Part shown: piece by piece, positions 9,402 to 37,927 of the stretch
How positions within the stretch are numbered: position 1 is the stretch's first letter
How the letters are laid out: the number at the start of each line of letters is the position of its first letter
Source of the DNA: Ruminococcus sp.
GTDB lineage: Bacteria > Bacillota > Clostridia > Oscillospirales > Ruminococcaceae
Reading direction: 5' to 3'
Assembly: GCA_017542475.1 (NCBI GenBank)
Contig: JAFXXD010000029.1
Coordinates: 1-43,195 of the forward strand
Length of the DNA stretch: 43,195 nt
Position numbers and translations under genes: made by a program
Notes under the pieces: model-generated
Database searches by the model: none
The model's input: only the letters and a program-made list of their open reading frames with translations
What the model was told of the DNA's origin: nothing

Positions 9402-9432
9402 AAAGGGACTGCAAAGCAGTCCCTTTAATTTT
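9402..9432. terminator. Bidirectional intrinsic terminator
   Basis: A perfect 11-bp stem (AAAGGGACTGC 9402-9412, complement 9416-9426) with a three-base loop and T-rich flanks on both strands. It ends the exonuclease gene and the convergent YGPP/radical SAM operon. Confidence 0.88.
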
Positions 9433-10504
9433 AGAAAAGTATGTCCTTGAAGCACACCTGCGGCTCGTGCCTGTCAAAGTCCCAGCTGTGGTAGGAATCG
9501 CCGTGACAGCGGTCTTTCTCCGAGCACGCCGAGCACTTCTCGTTCTCGTCGCAGAGGTTCTTGCGGAAGATCTTGAAGCCGTTCTCCCACACGTCCTTGA
9601 AGCGGTCGCGGAGGATATTTCCCTGAATGAACTCGGGACGGCGCTCGATATCGAGACAGGCGGTGATATCGCCGTTAGCCATAATGCTGGCGATGTAGGT
9701 ACCCGCCGTGCAGATATAGTACCAGTCGCGCACCTCGCGCTCGTACTCCATACCGAGGTAGTGGCTGCACCCGTAGGTCACGGGCTCGCCTTTGATTCGC
9801 ATATTGCGTATGTACTCGAACATATAGCGGTAATCGTCGGGCGTGAGCACCAGCTCGGGGTGCTGCTTTGCACGACCGATAGGCTCCATATTGATAATAC
9901 GCCACGAGTCGATGTCCATCTCGTTGAATATCTTGTAGAGATCGTCAAGCTGCCCTATATTCTGATGAGTGACTACCGTGGTAGCCTGTATCGCCTGAAA
10001 GCCTCCCTCGCGGATAAGGCATTCGATACCGTTCATAGCCTTCTTCCAGCCTCCGGGAGTACGGCGGAAGGCGTCGTGCGTCTCCTCGAGACCGTCAATG
10101 CTTATGGAAATGGTATTCATACCCACGCGCCTGAGCTCCTTGGCGACGTGCTCGTCGATGAGAGTGCCGTTGCTTGTCATGCCCCACTTGAAGCCGAGCT
10201 CGTGAGCATTGCCCATAATGTCGAAGAAGTCCTTGCGCAGGAGCGGCTCGCCGCCCGTGATACAGAGCATTTTCTTCTCCGTACCGAAGTCGCCCTTGAC
10301 CTCGGCGAGGAATTTCGCGTACTGCGCCGCAGTGAGCTCCTCGCTCGCAACGTCGCCGCAGCTGCTTCCGCAGTGGAGACATCTTTCGTTGCAGCGCATG
10401 GTCAGCTCGAGGAAGAGGTTGCGGAGCGTGGGCTTTACCATGAGCCCCGCGCGGTACGCCTCAAGCGTTTTCATATTGTCCTTTTTTACGTTTACGTCAA
10501 GCAT
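9431..10504 (-). CDS. Radical SAM/SPASM enzyme, predicted modifier of YGPP proteins
   Basis: This 357-residue protein has the radical SAM CxxxCxxC cluster (Cys38, Cys42, Cys45) and a G-G-E-P-L motif. Its C-terminal SPASM domain carries the seven-cysteine pattern expected for two auxiliary iron-sulfur clusters: Cys246, 265, 283, 318, 324, 327 and 333, plus Cys351. Characterised SPASM enzymes such as AnSME, sactisynthases and cyclophane-forming maturases modify peptides or proteins. The ATG lies three bases after the stop of the dockerin-YGPP gene, so it is the last gene of that operon. A second possible start is Met11. The substrate (the Tyr-Gly-Pro-Pro repeats of the two upstream genes) is inferred from the operon. 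It may belong to the NCBIfam group of radical SAM enzymes paired with a putative lipoprotein; this is from memory and not verified. Confidence 0.92.
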   Translation of the reverse strand: MLDVNVKKDNMKTLEAYRAGLMVKPTLRNLFLELTMRCNERCLHCGSSCGDVASEELTAAQYAKFLAEVKGDFGTEKKMLCITGGEPLLRKDFFDIMGNAHELGFKWGMTSNGTLIDEHVAKELRRVGMNTISISIDGLEETHDAFRRTPGGWKKAMNGIECLIREGGFQAIQATTVVTHQNIGQLDDLYKIFNEMDIDSWRIINMEPIGRAKQHPELVLTPDDYRYMFEYIRNMRIKGEPVTYGCSHYLGMEYEREVRDWYYICTAGTYIASIMANGDITACLDIERRPEFIQGNILRDRFKDVWENGFKIFRKNLCDENEKCSACSEKDRCHGDSYHSWDFDRHEPQVCFKDILF

Positions 10505-10507
10505 ATC

Positions 10508-11212
10508 TTAATCCTCGGCAGTTTCATCGACCTCTGGAACGGCGGTCGTCTCGGTATTTCTCATCATCGCAGGCGGACCGTACACCGTGGTAAATGTGGT
10601 CTCGGTGTCGCCGATGGGGTCTTCATACGGAGCTGTGGTAGTTGCAGTCTGCTGCTCGAACCACGCAGGCGGACCGTATACAGATGCATAGTTATTTTCG
10701 GTGGTAGTAGTAACATCGGGCTCGTCGTTAATGTCGGGCACGCCGATGACCTTGTCCCTGCCGAGCAGATACCTGTTCATCAGAACGAGGTCAGCGACAG
10801 TCAGAATACCGTCCTCGTTGATGTCGGCTGCTCTGTCATAGTATACGGAGTAGTTAGCCTTAGAGAACAGCTTGCGCATATTTATGAGGTCGAAGCTGTC
10901 AACAACGCCGTCGAAGTTCATATCGCCCGTCGCTATCGGCGGACCGTAGGCAGGCTGCGGTATTACCTCAGTCACTTCTGTGGTAGTCTCCTCGGGGACA
11001 GCAGTAGTCTCCGTAGTCCACGCAGGCATAGGACCGTAATCGGGCTGAGGAACAGGCTCCTCAAAGGTCGTGGTCTCGTAGTAAGCAGGCGGACCGTACA
11101 CGTCCTGAATTTCCTCTTCAGACGGGTCATAAGCCGAAGCACCCATGGGTACGACATTCAGCGCAGCCGCGAAAACGGCAGCAGTAAGAGCGGTCTTATC
11201 GGTCTTTTTCAT
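10508..11212 (-). CDS. Secreted YGPP-repeat protein with central dockerin
   Basis: This 234-residue protein has a signal peptide (about 1-27, ending G-A-S-A) and five Y-G-P motifs: YGPP at residues 39, 89, 179 and 211 and a variant YGPM at 59. They are separated by Thr/Glu/Pro-rich linkers. A complete dockerin with two calcium-binding repeats (about 96-151, G-D-M-N-F-D-G and D-I-N-E-D-G) sits between the third and fourth motifs, so the product should bind a cohesin on a cellulosome scaffold or the cell wall. Its first dozen residues share K-T-A-L-T-A-A with the neighbouring lipoprotein. AAAGGAG precedes the ATG. I infer that the repeats are substrates of the adjacent radical SAM enzyme before export. 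No catalytic domain is present. Confidence 0.9.
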   Translation of the reverse strand: MKKTDKTALTAAVFAAALNVVPMGASAYDPSEEEIQDVYGPPAYYETTTFEEPVPQPDYGPMPAWTTETTAVPEETTTEVTEVIPQPAYGPPIATGDMNFDGVVDSFDLINMRKLFSKANYSVYYDRAADINEDGILTVADLVLMNRYLLGRDKVIGVPDINDEPDVTTTTENNYASVYGPPAWFEQQTATTTAPYEDPIGDTETTFTTVYGPPAMMRNTETTAVPEVDETAED

Positions 11213-11234
11213 ATGTCATAGCTCCTTTCGTATG

Positions 11235-11630
11235 TCAGTCTTCAACAGCACTGGGAGGACCGTACACAAACTGCATATCTATCGGCTTGGTCGTTGTATC
11301 GGTGCTCACTTCGGTGACAGTCTCGGCAGTAGTCTCCTCAGGGAGGATATCTATCTGCGTCGTGACCACAGTCGGGTCTTCATCCATAGTCGGCGGCGGA
11401 CCGTACACGTCCTGCGGCTCTTCGGTCTCGGGCACATAGGCAGGCGGCGGACCGTACTCTGTCTGCAAGAGCGGGGGCTCGTCAGTTGCAACAGTTGCGG
11501 CGGGTCCGTCCGTATCGGGCGGACCGTAGGCTGTCTGCGGGTAGCACGACGTCAGCGTGACCGCGGCAGTCATAGACACAGCTGCGGTCAGCATAGCGGC
11601 TGTCAATGCAGTTTTTCTTGTGTGTTTCAT
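11235..11630 (-). CDS. YGPP-repeat putative lipoprotein
   Basis: This 131-residue protein has a signal peptide ending in a lipobox-like T-L-T-S-C, with Cys29 as the predicted lipidated residue. The rest is low-complexity and rich in Thr, Pro, Glu and Asp. It contains four exact YGPP motifs at residues 35, 59, 76 and 123, each preceded by a small, hydrophobic or acidic residue (A, E, V, V). The N-terminus resembles that of the dockerin-YGPP protein 22 bases downstream. It is the first gene of the operon, about 30 bases after the predicted transcription start; its ribosome binding site (GGGATG) is weak. It looks like a scaffold for a repeated modification rather than an enzyme. Confidence 0.85.
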   Translation of the reverse strand: MKHTRKTALTAAMLTAAVSMTAAVTLTSCYPQTAYGPPDTDGPAATVATDEPPLLQTEYGPPPAYVPETEEPQDVYGPPPTMDEDPTVVTTQIDILPEETTAETVTEVSTDTTTKPIDMQFVYGPPSAVED

Positions 11631-11665
11631 TTAATCATCCCATTTGTATCAATATACTTACTATT

Positions 11666-11694
11666 AGTATAACACTGCAGCCGTATAATGTCAA
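11666..11694 (-). promoter_or_regulatory. Promoter of the YGPP/radical SAM operon
   Basis: Minus strand: perfect TTGACA (11689-11694), 17-base spacer, TATACT (11666-11671). It starts four bases after the uvrA stop codon, so the operon is separate from uvrA although read-through is possible. Confidence 0.78.
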
Positions 11695-23430: not shown

Positions 23431-25461
23431 TCAATAGCTGTATGCTGTCACATCTTGGCTGATGTATGCGAGCTCTGTGAACTCGATATTGGGGTCATCT
23501 TCGTTATTGATGTACACCCTTATCCAGCCGTGCTTTCCGTCGTGCTCGGCGTACACCCACTCTCCGTTTCCCTTGTTGAAGCCAGCCTCGGTTATCAGGA
23601 CGTGCTCGGATACAGTCTCTACCACCGCGTAATCCGTGCTCGGACCCGAGTACATATTCGGGTCGCTGCCGATGATATTGAAGTACGCATAGCTCGTTGC
23701 TTCGGTATCGGGAGGAACAACAGCTATGCCCTCCTTTACGAGCCTTTGCCTCATCAGGCAGAGGTCATATATGTCGAGCTTGTTGTCGCGGCAATAGTCC
23801 GCGGCTTTCCAGTTATCAAGCTTGACACCTGTTCCCGCGAGCAGCCACTTCTGGAGGAGTGCGGCGTCCGCGACAGTGAGACTGCCGTCGCCGTTTGCGT
23901 CACCGTTTGGAGTGAATTTCAGACTGCACGAGACCTCGGTGAGGTTATCCTTTTCCGATGTGACCTTGAACGTGGGCGAGGAATAGCTTCCCGCCTTCGT
24001 GTACGTGTTAATGGTGTATCTCCAGTCGGGCTCGTAGAAATCCTTTGTCTCTACTATGGCGGGATTCGAGCTCACTGTATAGGTCTCAATGGGGAAGGGC
24101 TCCTTCATCAGTTCCTTGCGAATGATGGTATCCTTTTGGATATCTATGAGCTCGCCTGTGTCCGCGTCGTAGAAGGTTATCTTCGTTTCTCCCGCGGACG
24201 GGTCTTTTGCATTGCTGAGCCTGAATACTACCTCGGATGAACCGTTATCGTACTCGGTGAGTGTCATATAGCCGTCGGGTGTGATCGTACCGTTATAATA
24301 GCCCGAAGCAGCGTCATAGTTCGGCAGTCTGTAGCCCTTGGGAAGCCCGCCGTCTCTCAGACCGAATGAAATCTCGTCCGCATTGAGGAAGCTGCTCAGA
24401 TTCCTGATGATAGTCGGGTTGCTTCCGATCTCATATATCGGACCCGTGGACTTTTTACCCTCGGGTGTGTTGTAGCTGATATTTGTCCATATCGAGGGCA
24501 TTGCGTCTTCATCTAATGTGAGCAGCTCGCCTGTTGCAGAGTCAGCGAGCGATACCTTCATATCGCCGGGAAATAGTATGGTCTGTGTATCGTCGATTAT
24601 CTGACAGTCGGCGATAAGCCGCTTTTCGACTTCTTCGGGACGGTATACAACTCCGTAGTTGTTGATGTAATCGTATGTTATCTTTGCGTGCCCGTCTTTT
24701 TTCGCCTGATATACGGCTATTCTGTGTTTATAATTATCATCTGTCGCAGTATCACGATCTTCACCGCAGTATGATTCGCCCACGTAATCAATGACGTCCG
24801 TGTCATCACTGTCGGGCGATTTGTACCAGTCGAAGCCTGTTCCTGTTGTTGTTTCAAGGCAGAAAGTCAAATAATTGCCATGTCTCGCTACATTGCCGTT
24901 TGAATTGACATAATGGCAGTATTCGGTAAAGCAGTCGGGCAGCCAGCTGTAGATGTCCGTTTCTACCGTGTTCAGTATTCCTTCGTTTGAGGTTGTCGTG
25001 AATGTGTATGTTATCTTTCCGTCGGGATAGTAAATGTCGGATGGGGAAAGATTCACCGTATCCGTGAGCGTGACCTCAAAATCGCACTTATTCAGCGGTA
25101 TGTAGACAAGCACCTCGTAGTTGAATTCGCTGTCCTTCGTACCGTAGACCTCGTGCTTCACACACATTACGGTGTCGCTGTCGTCATCAAGGATATAACG
25201 CAGCATTCCGCGCGGCTCGCCCTCGGGTATCTTTTCGTTTACCTCCTTGAAAACAACGCATATCAGTCCGTCGTCAACGCGAGTTCCGCCGTAGGTGCTG
25301 CTGAATTCTTCTGCCGCTTCAAGGTCGTTCGGTATCCATGCGGGGAGCTCCCCGACCGTTGTATCCTCTGTTGGTGAAAGTGCAGCATATGCAGGCGGCA
25401 GGACAGTCGCCGAAGATAGTATCATTCCTGATGTGATAAGTGCAAGCAGCCTGTTCTTCAT
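23431..25461 (-). CDS. Dockerin protein of unknown function with C-terminal SH3-like domain
   Basis: This 676-residue exported protein begins with a signal peptide (about 1-27). Roughly 490 residues of unrecognised, probably beta-rich sequence follow. A dockerin lies near 518-582 (G-D-A-N-G-D-G first repeat, degenerate second repeat C-R-D-N-K-L-D). A bacterial SH3-like domain (about 605-665) ends the protein, with S-G-P-S-T-D-Y and G-W-I-R-V-Y motifs. SH3-like domains often bind cell-wall peptides or polysaccharides. The ATG at 25461 is chosen because GGAGG lies eight bases upstream; a start ten codons earlier has no site. The promoter at 25530-25559 is preceded by phased direct repeats. No catalytic motif was recognised in the long N-terminal part. 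Confidence 0.85.
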   Translation of the reverse strand: MKNRLLALITSGMILSSATVLPPAYAALSPTEDTTVGELPAWIPNDLEAAEEFSSTYGGTRVDDGLICVVFKEVNEKIPEGEPRGMLRYILDDDSDTVMCVKHEVYGTKDSEFNYEVLVYIPLNKCDFEVTLTDTVNLSPSDIYYPDGKITYTFTTTSNEGILNTVETDIYSWLPDCFTEYCHYVNSNGNVARHGNYLTFCLETTTGTGFDWYKSPDSDDTDVIDYVGESYCGEDRDTATDDNYKHRIAVYQAKKDGHAKITYDYINNYGVVYRPEEVEKRLIADCQIIDDTQTILFPGDMKVSLADSATGELLTLDEDAMPSIWTNISYNTPEGKKSTGPIYEIGSNPTIIRNLSSFLNADEISFGLRDGGLPKGYRLPNYDAASGYYNGTITPDGYMTLTEYDNGSSEVVFRLSNAKDPSAGETKITFYDADTGELIDIQKDTIIRKELMKEPFPIETYTVSSNPAIVETKDFYEPDWRYTINTYTKAGSYSSPTFKVTSEKDNLTEVSCSLKFTPNGDANGDGSLTVADAALLQKWLLAGTGVKLDNWKAADYCRDNKLDIYDLCLMRQRLVKEGIAVVPPDTEATSYAYFNIIGSDPNMYSGPSTDYAVVETVSEHVLITEAGFNKGNGEWVYAEHDGKHGWIRVYINNEDDPNIEFTELAYISQDVTAYSY

Positions 25462-26257: not shown

Positions 26258-29200
26258 TCAGCTGAGGCTCCAGCTGTCCATTGAGATGTTATTGTTGAAT
26301 ACGAAATAGAGGTCGCTCTTGCCGCTGAGACCCTGTACGGGAACTGTTACCTCCTGCATGGAGCTTCCTGCGGGTATCTCCGCATATGCGACTGCCGTAC
26401 CCGAAGCACTGCCTGTGCATAACTTCACGATACAGCCGCTGCTTGCGGACGCCTTTACTGTCAGTGCCTTTGCACTGCCGCAGTCAACGCCCGAAACGCG
26501 GAACCAGTCGCCTTTTTCAGCCTTGACGAGCGAGTTGCCGCTGCCTGTTATCTCGATTCCGCCCTGATGTGAGAACGTTGCCGCACGTACAGTCTTGGTC
26601 GGGTCGAGAGCCTTTATCTGCTCGATACCTGCCTTTGTACCCTTGACCTGCTGCATCGTGCCGTCAGCGTTCATTGTGATCTTGTCGATGTGGGTGCTTC
26701 TGTAGCCCATGCCATTCAGATCCATAACATCCTGCAGGTACTGAGCATGATAGAAGAGATACCACTGACCGTTGAATTCCATAATAGTATGGTGATTGTT
26801 GCCTGTCGTGCCGAAGAAGTTGCCGATGTTCTTGAACACCTCACCCTTGTAGGTGAAGGGTCCGAGAGGGCTGTCGCTGACCATATAGTCAATAGCGGCA
26901 GTTGAAAGTCCGTACTGATTGCCGCCTGTGCTCCAGTTGGTGCAGTAGCTGTAGTAGTATTTGCCGTTGTACTTGTGGATGCCGCTGTCCTCAAACATAT
27001 AAGGAGCGTCGATAGTTACGGGTGTACCAACGATAGAGGTCATATCATCGCTGAGCTTTACGCAGCGTGAAGACTTCGGGTGGTCGGAGGGAAGGTTGTC
27101 TGTACCGCCGCCGAAATAGAGATAGCCTGTACCGTCGTCATCGACGAGCACTGCGGGGTCGAAGACCCACGGAACAACATTGCTGGTACAGTTTGCAGTA
27201 TTACGATCGATCATTGCGCGTCCGTTGGGATCTGTCCAAGGACCTGTCGGACTGTCAGAAGTGAGCACTCCGATACCGTTCGCATTATTTGCAAAGTATA
27301 GGAAGAACTTTTCCTTGCCGTTTATCTTCTTGTGGCAGGCTGTGGGAGCCCACGAGTTGCCCGCCCATTTTGCGATACCGTTCTGACCTGCGACATTGAT
27401 AAGACCGTGGTCGGTCCAGTTTACCATATCGTCAGACGATATGCAGCGCAGGCAGTTGATAGTGCTGTAGGTCTCTTTTGTGACATTTCCGTTCTCATAG
27501 AGCAGATGGTCGTCAGTCATATAGATGTAGACTCTGCCGTCGTACTCCATAACGCCCGGGTCAGCGCCGAAATATTGCGTGATGAGCGGGTTGTGCTCGT
27601 TCTCGGCTTTATAGGATTTTGCGATAGTAACACTGCCGAATTTCTGAGCCATTTCTGTGAAGTTAACCTGCTGAACGGGCTGAGTGGTTGTGGTTGTAGT
27701 TGTTGTTGTTGTTGTTGTCTCAAACCCTTCGCTGTAGCTCTCGGGAAGGCTCTTTAATACGCCTGCGTCGAGCATCTGGATCGAAAGCGCATCTCTTGCT
27801 GTTACGCCGTCGCCTCTGAGATATACGTCAGCGTTGTCAAGAGCCTTAGCGTTCAGCTTGTACTTGTCCTTGTTTCCGAGGTACTGGAGGATAGCCGTGG
27901 CATCGGCAATTGTGACTTTTCCGTCGAGGTTTGCGTCGCCGTAGAGCGTATCCGTTGTCGGAGCAGCTGTTGTAGTCTGCTGTGGTGTGGTTGTTGTCAC
28001 TGTCGGCTTAGGTCCGTCGATCTGGGTGCCTGCTTTGGCAACGATAGCCTCGTCGATGGAGAAGTCGGAAGTGCCTTCCTCAGTCTCAACGTAGAGGATA
28101 TATCCCGAACCCTCGGGGAGCTTGTAGTTGGTATTCGCAAGCTGTACGTAGTCGCCGTCGGACTCGCCGCTTGCGATGTGGTCGTACTTAGTCTCGCCGC
28201 TTGCGTCCGTGTACTGGAGCGAGAGCATCATATTGCCCGAGCCCGAAGCCGCTACGCTGAAGCTGTACTCCTCGCCTGCCTTGAAGGTCAGCGAATCGAG
28301 TGTCTTCATTGCGCCGTGCCAAGCACTGCCGCGGTCGGAAACTGTAAGAGCCTTGGTGCCTGCGTAAGCTGTGCCGCCAGATGTGGAGACAGAAGCGCCG
28401 CCTCTGCCTTCCCAGTCGTCTGTACCGTCCTCGAAGGTGTCGTGGTAGTAGTAGCCGTTAGCGTCGGGGGTGATTGGGTCGCGCTGCACAGGACCGTCTG
28501 TGTCAGCGGGGAGGTCCTTGCCGTCGCTTGTCATTGTTACAACGAACGTAGATACGCTGTTTGCGGGGAGCTGTGCGTAGAAGGATTCTCCGCTCGCTTC
28601 CATTCCCTTTGTAGCCGCGATGTTCTCGCTGCCGGACGTTCTGTAGCGGTCAACGTTGGTTATGCTTCTGCCGCTGAGCGTGAACTGCTGTGTTACCTCG
28701 CCGCTGCCCTTATTGATAGCAACGATAGTTGCCTGTGTATCGCTGTGCTTGTATGCCGAAACGAGAATGTTCGTGTTGGGCTGCTCGGTGGCGTCGATAC
28801 GCATATCGCCCGGGCGTACCCACTTCGAGAACTGCGCCATTGCGTAGCCTCTCTTGGATATCTTTCCGTTGTCCCACATAGGGCTGTACTGGCGGCGGAT
28901 ATACCACCATACATATGCGTTCATATTGCCGACTACCATTGCGTTGTGGATGTTCTCGGCGACCTGTACGCCCTCGGGCCAGCGGTCTGCGGAGTTGTTA
29001 TCCGAGTTCGGAACATAGACCTCGGTCATCCAGATCTCCTTGCCGCACTGCTCGAGTGCGGGGAAGTCCATCGCGCTTCTCTGCGTGCCGTAGAAGTGTG
29101 TACCGAACATATCGCAGTTCTCAAATGCCTTGGAATCATTGAGAATCGCGTTGTAGTAGTCCTTGCTGTAGCTGAAGCTCTCGGGCGACATCATTTTCGT

Positions 29201-35224: not shown

Positions 35225-37927
35225 ATGAGGATCAAACGCACACACCTTTTTGCGGTACTGTTCTCAGCTTGTCTGATGGCTTCAGCAACACCTGTAATTT
35301 CAGCGGCAGAGACAATACCCAAGAGTATCGGCGACGTGAACAGTGACGCAAGGGTCACGGCGGCAGACGCGGTCGCGATACTGCAATTCGTGGCAAACAG
35401 CGGGAAGTACCCGCTCGATGCCGAGGCTCTCAACAGAGCGGATGTCTACAACAGGGGAGACGGCGTAACCGCACGCGACGCACTTACGATTCTGAAGTAT
35501 GACGCGGGGCTGCTGACATCGCTGCCCGAGTCGTGGGCGGAGCAGCCGACAACTGAGGCTCCAACCGAGCCTGCTACAGAGGAGACCACCGAAGCTCCCA
35601 CCGAGCCGACAACAGAAGCTCCCCTTGTGGTCGAGGACGTAGAGACCTACATCAAGCTCAACGGTTCAAGCGTTGACATCGACGGCAAGTACGCGCAGGC
35701 TGAGGGCTCGAACGTGACTATCAGCCATTCGGGAAGCTATTTCATCAAGGGCAGGCTCGATAACGGACAGATAAGGGTGGAAGTCCCCGATGAGAACGCA
35801 GACTCGGGAACCGTAAAGCTCATTTTCGGCGGCGTTGATATCAGCGGAAAGAACGCTCCCGCGATACTTGTGAAGAACGCCGACAAGACCTCGATAACGG
35901 TCGAGGACGGCACGGAGAACAGCATATTCGACGGCGAGACTGCCTACTCGGGCGACTGGCTCGACAACGCTCTCATTGAGGCTAAGGACGACCTTACGAT
36001 CAAGGGCGGCGAGCTCGGGACGGGAGTTCTCGATATTACGGCAAATACGCAGAATGCCATTATCTGCAACAACGACATTAAGATAACGGGCTGCAACATC
36101 AATATCACAACGCTCAACAAGGAGGACAAGACCGACGCTGTTAAGGGCAAGACCTCGGTGACTGTCAAGGGCGGCAGGCTCATTATCGACGCTGAGGGCG
36201 ACGGTATCAAGTCCTCGAAGGGCAATGTTGACATCTCGGGCGGCGAGATAGTCATAAAGGCGGGCAGCGATGCTATACAGGCGGAGACGGAGCTCAATAT
36301 CTTGGGCGGAGATATCTCAGCCTGCGGCGACAGAGGTCTGCGCAGTGAGGGCACTATCAGTATCACAGGCGGAGAGCTTCTTGCGACCGCTACCGACAAT
36401 CAGTGCGACAACCTGACCTCTACGGCTCAGCCCGCGGTCGTGCTCGATATGACCAAGCAGTGGTCGAAGAACAACCCGATAACGCTTACAGACGCGGGTA
36501 AGAACGTCGTATTTGATAAGAACACGCGCAAGAAGTACCGCTATGTCATAGTTTCCTCGCCCGAGCTCAGCGACGGCTCTTCCTACAGCGTATTTGCGGG
36601 CGGTATCGAGACAAAGGCTTCCTCTGACATCAAGGCGGGAACTCCCGCTGCATATACCGACGTAAACAACTCCGACGACGCCGACCTTCTCTACGCCGAC
36701 CTCTTCGACCAGAGCAGCGTGCACAAGATAGAGGTCGAGATGAGCAACTGGGACGAGTTCCTCAAGCACTCGCAGGAGGAGGAATACTACCCCTGCAATG
36801 TCATCATAGACGGCGAGCGCCTTGACAATGTCGGCATAAGAACAAAGGGACACAGCTCCAATATGTTCGTATATCAGGCGGGCAAGGACAAGTACAGCTT
36901 CCGCTTCAAGCTTGACAAGTACGACAAGTACCAGAATTACAAGGGCCTGACGGAGATATGCGTCAACAACTTCTACTCCGATCCCTCGTGTATGCGCGAT
37001 GTGCTCTGCTATAACGCGATGTACGACCTCGATGCCTACGCTCCGAATGTCGGATACACGGATATGTACCTCAACGGCAAGCTCTACAGCTTCTACCTGC
37101 TGTGCGAGCAGCCCGACAATACCCTTGGCGAGCGCCTTGCCACCGCAGATGACGCCGTATTATACAAGGCGGCAGACGTCGGAAACTCCTATGACTGCAC
37201 GTTCAGACCGTCAATGGCTCTGAATAACTTCGAGGTAAAGTTCGGCACGGATGACGACCTGAAGCACATTCAGGAGGTCAAGGACGCTATCAATAAGGTA
37301 ACAGCCGACAACTACAAGTTCATCGAGGACGTCATCGACGTACCGAGCTTCCTCAAGGGCTTTGCCGTGAACGCGGTAATGGCTAACTATGACAGCTACA
37401 ACGGTCAGATGGCGCACAACTACTACGTGATGTACAACGCGGGCAAGATGTACTACGTGGGCTGGGACTACAACCTCTCCATCGGCAACTTTATGGACAA
37501 CGGCGCGGCGGCGGAGTCCGACATAACAACGGGTCTGTATCAGGCGAATGCCAACGACCGCCCGATGCTCACGAAGCTTCTTCAGGTGCCGCAGTACAGG
37601 GAGATGTACTACAGCTACGTAAAGCAGATAGTAAGCCTCTACAGCGACCCCGAGCAGACTGTGAACGGTCTTGCTTCGCTTATCCGTGACCACGTCAAGG
37701 CTGACCCGCGCTTCTTCTTCACATACGACCAGTTCGAGAGCAACATCTCGAAGAGCCCGAACGGACTGCAGGTCGGTCAGGGCGGCGGCATGGGCGGAAT
37801 GTGGGGCGGCTTCCCCGGAATGTGGGGAGGCGGCGGAGGTCTATTCTCCTACGGCGGCGATAAGGTCTCGATAGTTGACTTTATGATAAAGCGCAACCAG
37901 TATATCCACCAGAAGCTCGGCTACTAA
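35225..37927 (+). CDS. Dockerin protein with carbohydrate-binding-like and CotH kinase domains
   Basis: This 900-residue secreted protein begins with a signal peptide (1-28), an N-terminal dockerin (about 36-100) and a Thr/Glu/Pro linker (107-135). A repeated beta-strand region (about 145-420) resembles the 'carbohydrate-binding domain-containing' DUF4353 type. A CotH kinase-like domain (about 490-890) follows, with the Y-L-N-G-K-L-Y-S-F-Y-L-L-C-E motif and W-D-Y-N at 747-750, the site of the catalytic or metal-binding Asp. Gly/Met/Trp-rich loops occur near 850-875. CotH proteins phosphorylate spore-coat proteins in Bacillus; many bacterial relatives are secreted. The ATG at 35225 follows GGAG by nine bases and is preferred over a GTG seven codons earlier. 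Confidence 0.9.
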   Translation: MRIKRTHLFAVLFSACLMASATPVISAAETIPKSIGDVNSDARVTAADAVAILQFVANSGKYPLDAEALNRADVYNRGDGVTARDALTILKYDAGLLTSLPESWAEQPTTEAPTEPATEETTEAPTEPTTEAPLVVEDVETYIKLNGSSVDIDGKYAQAEGSNVTISHSGSYFIKGRLDNGQIRVEVPDENADSGTVKLIFGGVDISGKNAPAILVKNADKTSITVEDGTENSIFDGETAYSGDWLDNALIEAKDDLTIKGGELGTGVLDITANTQNAIICNNDIKITGCNINITTLNKEDKTDAVKGKTSVTVKGGRLIIDAEGDGIKSSKGNVDISGGEIVIKAGSDAIQAETELNILGGDISACGDRGLRSEGTISITGGELLATATDNQCDNLTSTAQPAVVLDMTKQWSKNNPITLTDAGKNVVFDKNTRKKYRYVIVSSPELSDGSSYSVFAGGIETKASSDIKAGTPAAYTDVNNSDDADLLYADLFDQSSVHKIEVEMSNWDEFLKHSQEEEYYPCNVIIDGERLDNVGIRTKGHSSNMFVYQAGKDKYSFRFKLDKYDKYQNYKGLTEICVNNFYSDPSCMRDVLCYNAMYDLDAYAPNVGYTDMYLNGKLYSFYLLCEQPDNTLGERLATADDAVLYKAADVGNSYDCTFRPSMALNNFEVKFGTDDDLKHIQEVKDAINKVTADNYKFIEDVIDVPSFLKGFAVNAVMANYDSYNGQMAHNYYVMYNAGKMYYVGWDYNLSIGNFMDNGAAAESDITTGLYQANANDRPMLTKLLQVPQYREMYYSYVKQIVSLYSDPEQTVNGLASLIRDHVKADPRFFFTYDQFESNISKSPNGLQVGQGGGMGGMWGGFPGMWGGGGGLFSYGGDKVSIVDFMIKRNQYIHQKLGY

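Follow-up and report, generated by a model that had tools for sequence, protein, structure and literature searches.

A 43,195-nucleotide stretch of DNA from a rumen Ruminococcus sp. (contig JAFXXD010000029.1 of assembly GCA_017542475.1; hereafter the window) encodes a radical S-adenosylmethionine (SAM) enzyme of the SPASM type beside two exported proteins, A and B, that carry repeated Tyr-Gly-Pro-Pro (YGPP) motifs. By comparing genomes, we show that this enzyme is inherited together with mostly exported X-Tyr-Gly-Pro-Pro proteins, in which X is usually Val, Leu or Ala, and that the motif is set on interchangeable anchors, namely a lipobox, a dockerin or a DUF805 membrane domain. The three genes probably constitute a protein-maturation operon, an estimate that covers YGPP-protein maturation in general and excludes its chemistry, and on these sequence comparisons the YGPP motif is very likely the modified site. 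A preliminary description of this locus had called the system undescribed; the parent pair already carries NCBI model names, though no function, and what we describe is a new, multi-core and partly cellulosomal variant of this named radical SAM/lipoprotein system.

Linkage of the enzyme to YGPP proteins

Our counts agreed with the preliminary description, which had listed nine Tyr-Gly-Pro motifs, eight of them exact YGPP, in two adjacent exported proteins with a shared start and an enzyme gene three bases downstream. Protein A begins MKHTRKTALTAA, with LTSC at residues 26-29 followed by four YGPP, the first of which starts 6 residues past the lipobox-like Cys. Protein B begins MKKTDKTALTAA and contains four YGPP and one YGPM. 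Both open with MKxTxKTALTAA, and the genes run A, B, enzyme on the minus strand, with gaps of 22 bases between A and B and 3 bases between the B stop and the enzyme start.

When the letters of each protein were shuffled 20,000 times, the mean number of YGPP was 0.004 for A and 0.007 for B, with a maximum of 1. The DNA pattern TAYGGNCCNCC occurs at 15 sites in the 2.66-Mb genome, 8 of which lie within 1.1 kb in genes A and B, and the reversed pattern occurs at 6. A chance or low-complexity origin of YGPP was rejected on these two results. In alignments with the orthologues of six close relatives, 12 of 16 motif columns of protein A were invariant versus 23 of 115 elsewhere, and in protein B 13 of 16 versus 58 of 218, so that the shuffles, the genome-wide pattern and the alignments together argue that the motif is not accidental. 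Four of the seven other sites in this genome were read (on contigs C14 and C21, those on C30, C51 and C57 falling outside the reading), and they gave no support for substrates encoded elsewhere in this genome. A RuvB-like gene (YGPPGLGKTT) holds one of them and a 125-amino-acid (aa) open reading frame (ORF) with a single YGPP another; the remaining two fall in no YGPP ORF of at least 50 aa.

The genome search for this pairing covered 133 loci, comprising the window, 77 loci from a search with the window enzyme's own peptides, and sets of 11, 29 (of 49 other matches) and 15, after L001, L079 and L091-L094 had been left out as duplicates or strays. YGPP ORFs lie upstream of the enzyme and on its strand in 127 of the 133, which bears out the proposal that a SPASM enzyme serves exported multi-YGPP proteins specifically. 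Some genomes were possibly counted twice, and distinct enzymes were therefore counted as well, 105 in all, of which 99 have YGPP. A YGPP ORF ends within 150 bp of the enzyme in 124 of the 127 loci, the nearest one being 263 bp (L047), 198 bp (L126) and 864 bp (L118) away in the other three. Among 568 YGPP in frames of at least 50 aa (972 kb), 562 sit in these upstream ORFs and the remaining 6 are also upstream on the same strand. The number of motif copies per locus ranges from 1 to 17. L052 and L058 each have eight substrate ORFs and 17 motifs upstream of the enzyme, with several ORFs placing YGPP near both ends of a dockerin-like stretch.

The distribution among congeners was consistent with this linkage. 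The enzyme was present in 50 of 100 sampled congeners, and YGPP-type DNA matches had a median of 11 per congener with the enzyme versus 2.5 without it (Mann-Whitney p 7.6e-14). Widespread YGPP repeats without the enzyme would, according to the preliminary description, count against its proposal; the four enzyme-negative congeners inspected, out of 50, gave no clear case of such repeats. The four were drawn from the five with most matches, G579 (8 matches, tied fourth) being left out; G597, G576 and G558 have only single sites kilobases apart (positions listed, untranslated), and in G200 the A and B genes run off the contig end where the enzyme would follow.

Several observations weigh against so general a linkage or qualify it. 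The sample leans to close relatives, since the window enzyme's own peptides were queried; in the less biased draws, YGPP was upstream in 10 of 11 and 11 of 15 loci. Congeners that have the enzyme also differ slightly from those that lack it in the reversed-pattern control (means 11.74 and 8.84; p 0.04). The six misses comprise L076 and L125 at contig ends (the L125 frame that the contig end truncates does contain two YGPP, although the locus was scored as a miss), L084, and the distant enzymes L135-L137, whose identity to the window enzyme does not exceed 43% and which have no upstream YGPP. Small ORFs downstream of the L135, L136 and L137 enzymes carry LYGVP, AYGID and MYGSP, respectively, and the one at L135 has a weak TIGR04134 match (E value 0.033). 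It is a guess that these are substrates, possibly single-site cousins. In G096, the genome that holds L084, no YGPP ORF lies within the 14 kb surrounding the enzyme gene, but four YGPP proteins are encoded at three sites elsewhere (L181, L182 and L183). They begin with (M/V)KK(T/S)xxTxxTAAxLSAA, and dockerin repeats can be made out in them by eye. Because this genome carries YGPP proteins away from its enzyme, substrates need not be linked.

Signals and lipoboxes were called by simple rules of our own in 184 distinct YGPP ORFs, of which 169 have a signal-like start and 64 a lipobox-like stretch. Dockerin_1 was present in 85 of the 146 substrates scanned with Pfam (E up to 0.01; from the loci of the window-peptide search), and in two substrates (L089 and L090) the YGPP units come after a DUF805 membrane domain, which takes the place of a cleavable signal peptide. 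Export is not universal, however, as short YGPP ORFs without a signal peptide occur at L046, L057, L085 and L087; these are possible cytosolic substrates or regulators. They (L046:868-1074, L057:4053-4334 and the upstream ORFs of L085 and L087) have one YGPP each, near the enzyme. Many substrates have in common the start MKKTxKTxLTAAxFAAA (alignment consensus), which was absent from six of six other dockerin-like proteins with a visible start in a genome with 96 dockerin matches, and this signal peptide may double as a leader. As a universal leader the KTxLTAA start was rejected, since the DUF805 and small unsignalled substrates are without it, yet it appears to be specific in view of its absence from those six proteins.

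What stays constant from group to group is X-Tyr-Gly, with a Pro at +3 or +2 in nearly every case. The residue before Tyr was V in 63%, L in 19% and A in 8% of 425 distinct motif segments, and +6 was F in 34%. The variants YGPM (25), YGPA (24), YGAP (22), YGVP (7) and YGIP (7) compare with 564 YGPP, and Thr, Glu and Pro are abundant in the linkers. Because the motif is multiplied, is borne by anchors that are unrelated and, in one genome, is encoded away from the enzyme gene, its four residues are the likely target. The single-motif proteins of the parent family hid this target, and the multi-copy form offers short, multi-site substrates.

The parent family and the cellulosome

The window enzyme has the radical SAM motif CxxxCxxC at C38/C42/C45 and, in its SPASM part, six Cys at 265, 283, 324, 327, 333 and 351, all invariant in 39 of 39 aligned enzymes. 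Its Pfam scores (PF04055, 79.1 bits, cut-off 29.5; PF13186, 31.6 bits, cut-off 21.5) place it in the radical SAM/SPASM group. The top NCBIfam model among 77 listed was TIGR04133 (270.9 bits, under the cut-off of 425), followed by AhbD (152.2 bits) and MftC (140.9), and the enzyme is probably a divergent relative of TIGR04133. TIGR04103 (nif11-class maturase 3), which we take to be PlpX's model, stood ninth, behind the AhbD, MftC and NirJ models, at 109.3 bits versus a cut-off of 725, and the PapB and dynobactin DynA models gave 81.7 and 75.3 bits. The structure model of the enzyme (39 sequences) had a mean predicted local distance difference test score (pLDDT) of 86.4, and its nearest solved folds in the PDB were the peptide-modifying SPASM enzymes SkfB, SuiB and CteB (Foldseek E 1e-17 to 1e-13), which differ from it in being 25% identical or less. 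SuiB makes a C-C cross-link, SkfB and CteB make thioethers, and all three have other substrate motifs and their own RiPP (ribosomally synthesized and post-translationally modified peptide) recognition element (RRE) domains. No RRE-like N-terminal domain was seen in the window enzyme or its model, which has no room for one because only about 30 residues lie ahead of the radical SAM domain. The fold search cannot separate chemistries and was dropped as a guide to them.

The preliminary description had mentioned a Bacteroidetes pair of such an enzyme with a YGxP lipoprotein, and this pair is real, being TIGR04133/TIGR04134. Annotated pairs over the cut-offs occur in Parabacteroides distasonis and Treponema saccharophilum (plasmid search), with TIGR04133 scores of 607.9 and 451.4; the enzymes of L138 (385.9) and L135 (330.6) fall below 425. 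Phocaeicola massiliensis has an unannotated look-alike pair, unscanned by the models, in which the lipoprotein follows the enzyme. YGxP stands near the mature lipoprotein start in all three (CEYGSP in Parabacteroides, CYGMP in Treponema, CEYGTP in Phocaeicola). On our reading of those retrieved, TIGR04134 members have YGxP soon after the signal peptide of the exported partner, as protein A does. The window system resembles this pair in its best enzyme model, its adjacent exported partner, a YGxP near the mature N-terminus and, by eye, the same six-Cys SPASM pattern. It differs in that its enzyme scores below the cut-off, A and B have no match to TIGR04134 (cut-off 39.8 bits) up to E 10, the motif is present in many copies rather than one, and the anchors are dockerin or DUF805 rather than the carboxypeptidase-regulatory-like domain, models of which the Parabacteroides and Treponema lipoproteins also match. 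We found no paper on the function of the parent pair, nor any on the multi-YGPP system, in the open-licence literature.

A locus of the window's own class, L138, bridges the YGPP and TIGR04133 groups, because its enzyme is near TIGR04133 and its partner lipoprotein matches TIGR04134 (57.2 bits) with MYGPP within the matched stretch. The nif11-class maturase 3 model was second best for the L138 enzyme and aligned near full length to the Parabacteroides enzyme. In a quick tree of 60 rows, the YGPP enzymes, TIGR04133 plus L138, and L135-L137 were each set apart by a single branch, with support in the Shimodaira-Hasegawa-like approximate likelihood ratio test (SH-aLRT) of 99, 98 and 99, and the YGPP enzymes stood next to TIGR04133 plus L138. 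The three groups together parted from the 6 outgroup rows at an SH-aLRT of only 85, and 4 of those rows have long branches, which calls for caution. TIGR04134 matches in a relative (L091) were discarded, as the frame is, by eye, a phage-structural-type protein.

A Pfam scan of protein B placed the dockerin (PF00404) at residues 96-150 with 34.7 bits (cut-off 22.9), and it was the sole domain over the cut-off. In the AlphaFold2 model of B (12 sequences, mean pLDDT 52.4), order was confined to residues ~90-160, around the dockerin; ten-residue block means elsewhere were below 55, and the linkers, which hold most motifs, are predicted to be disordered. Cohesin matches in the window's genome number 11 (10 over the cut-off; six in one 1824-aa frame) and dockerin matches 96 (93 over the cut-off, B's included); B thus has the dockerin, and its genome the cohesins, of a cellulosome component, which suggests that B attaches to the cellulosome. 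The other dockerin proteins of the genome were screened for YGPP only via the genome-wide DNA pattern. The likeness to the R. flavefaciens-type cellulosome lies in the type I dockerin of B and in the cohesins and dockerins of the genome; the differences are that B has no second domain over the Pfam cut-off and that its cohesin partner is only putative.

Candidate chemistries at the motif

We infer with considerable confidence that the enzyme would modify every X-Tyr-Gly-(Pro/x)-Pro site, as so many repeated cores, while the protein is still in the cytosol, after which the modified proteins would be exported and held at the envelope (A) or tethered to the cellulosome (B). Modification before export is suggested because the proteins have signal-peptide-like starts and radical SAM enzymes are cytosolic.

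As to the chemistry, a tentative candidate, well short of an even chance, is tyramine splicing at X-Tyr-Gly in the manner of PlpX, by analogy, with a loss of about 135 Da (C8H9NO) per site. PMC10533398 describes excision of tyramine by PlpXY at X-Tyr-Gly, with MYG and LYG as natural sites, and working engineered tags that contain PIRPGYGLPI, a YGxP form, and need no RiPP leader; two further papers describe several splicing events per precursor (PMC10373908) and the action of PlpX with the RRE protein PlpY (PMC11002830). X-Tyr-Gly is present at all nine sites of A and B, and X is V, L or A in ~90% of the 425 segments. Splicing is favoured because of this resemblance of sites, the several sites per precursor and the leader independence, to which may be added the SPASM radical SAM nature of both enzymes and the fit of the nif11-class maturase 3 model to the L138 and Parabacteroides enzymes. 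Speculatively, the resulting reactive carbonyls could trap proteases or serve to anchor partners at the cellulosome and the cell surface. Other findings speak against splicing. Many tags placed in FtsZ failed, LYG ones included, according to PMC10533398. The operon, with its neighbours read by eye, has no PlpY/RRE-like gene (PlpY was not searched for elsewhere in the genome), no nif11 or nitrile-hydratase-type Pfam domain was found among the 146 substrates, the TIGR04103 score is far below its cut-off, and the prolines are kept though splicing requires only XYG. Weighing these likenesses against the lack of PlpY and of a nif11 leader and against the low model score, we therefore give splicing only a tentative place.

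Another possibility, held as tentatively, is a different change of Tyr or Pro, such as oxidation, desaturation, epimerisation, or a decarboxylation-like or side-chain cleavage, in keeping with AhbD and MftC as the next NCBIfam models. MftC decarboxylates Tyr and bridges it to the adjacent Val, as stated in PMC8326336. The commonest residue before Tyr is likewise Val in the YGPP proteins. Nothing specific supports such a change, however, and the sites here are internal, whereas MftC acts at a C-terminal Tyr.

Somewhat more doubtful is a cross-link that joins the Tyr ring to a nearby carbon of Y-G-X, such as Pro C-beta, to give a three-residue cyclophane (about -2 Da per site, the shift that the preliminary description had offered as an example), in which case the linkers would be stiffened against proteases. 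Aromatic-x-x motifs are known three-residue cyclophane substrates, and the predicted fold is nearest SkfB, SuiB and CteB; furthermore, the YGxP forms among the 20 commonest xGxP tetrads have P, A, V, I or S as their third residue, each of which bears a C-beta hydrogen, and YGGP is absent from these 20. The PapB and DynA scores, far under that of TIGR04133, argue against a cross-link, as does the enzyme model, which has no RRE-like N-terminus of the kind found in SuiB.

It is unlikely that the motif is merely a tag or is unrelated to modification. One form of this, in which YGPP serves in recognition or binding (by the enzyme, in export or by a surface partner) and the modified residue lies elsewhere, e.g. 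a Cys at -2, appears improbable: Cys does cluster at -2, and CEYG is also found in the Parabacteroides and Phocaeicola lipoproteins, but -2 is Cys in just 8% of the 425 segments, B has no Cys at all and A has only its lipobox-like one. In the 184 ORFs, 27 of 131 non-lipobox Cys stand at -2 of a motif Tyr and 4 at -3, while -1 and -4 to -6 have none; examples of this CxYGxP sub-type are L088, L086, L124 and L128, as well as the L139 and L141 lipoproteins. It is very improbable that the YGPP repeats form linkers of an ordinary surface-protein kind and that the enzyme has another target, since the Thr/Glu/Pro-rich, predicted disordered character of the linkers is outweighed by linkage in 99 of 105 distinct enzymes, covariation with the enzyme and placement of the motif on unrelated anchors.

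Somewhat short of an even chance, in our view, is the wider reading in which rumen ruminococci bear, on cellulosome-docking and envelope proteins, arrays of ribosomally encoded, chemically rebuilt residues, these being ketoamides by tyramine splicing at X-Tyr-Gly-Pro-Pro or Tyr-Pro cross-links. If true, this would be radical chemistry on structural surface proteins, not small peptide products, with a single-copy form common to lipoproteins of Bacteroidota and Spirochaetota. It would add radical SAM protein modification to the cellulosome and the gut-bacterial surface, and possibly provide new leader-free enzymes for site-specific protein labelling.

The locus and its surroundings

The locus lies on contig C48 of a genome that is 94% complete, and the nearest relatives of the enzyme, 96% identical, are in Ruminococcus flavefaciens strains. 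The flanking genes, read by eye, are of the excinuclease-A type upstream and, after the operon on the opposite strand, of the exonuclease-III type. The preliminary description had given the three genes a shared promoter. One sigma-70-like site does stand before A, and a shuffled region gives a mean of 2.0 such sites, so that the site is within the chance rate and its sharing is only presumed. The features are collected in Table 1.

Table 1. Positions in the window of the three genes, the candidate promoter, the dockerin and the motifs.
Feature	Position	Strand	Basis
Radical SAM/SPASM enzyme, 357 aa	9431..10504	-	ORF, NCBIfam, Pfam, alignment, model
Protein B, 234 aa, signal-peptide-like start, 4 YGPP + 1 YGPM, dockerin mid-protein	10508..11212	-	
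YGPP in B (VYGPPAMM)	10571..10582	-	
YGPP in B (VYGPPAWF)	10667..10678	-	
Dockerin type I domain of B	10763..10927	-	Pfam; best-ordered part of model; 37.7 bits in genome scan
YGPP in B (AYGPPIAT)	10937..10948	-	
YGPM variant in B (DYGPMPAW)	11027..11038	-	
YGPP in B (VYGPPAYY)	11087..11098	-	
Protein A, 131 aa, signal-peptide-like start, lipobox-like LTSC, 4 YGPP	11235..11630	-	
YGPP in A (VYGPPSAV)	11253..11264	-	
YGPP in A (VYGPPPTM)	11394..11405	-	
YGPP in A (EYGPPPAY)	11445..11456	-	
YGPP in A (AYGPPDTD)	11517..11528	-	
Candidate promoter TTGACA-17-TATACT, TG before second hexamer, ~35 nt ahead of A	11666..11694	-	Within chance rate

Three more dockerin matches, in larger proteins, are present in the window, at 23740-23904 (-), 27779-27943 (-) and 35330-35500 (+), in open frames of 688, 1203 and 914 aa, respectively.

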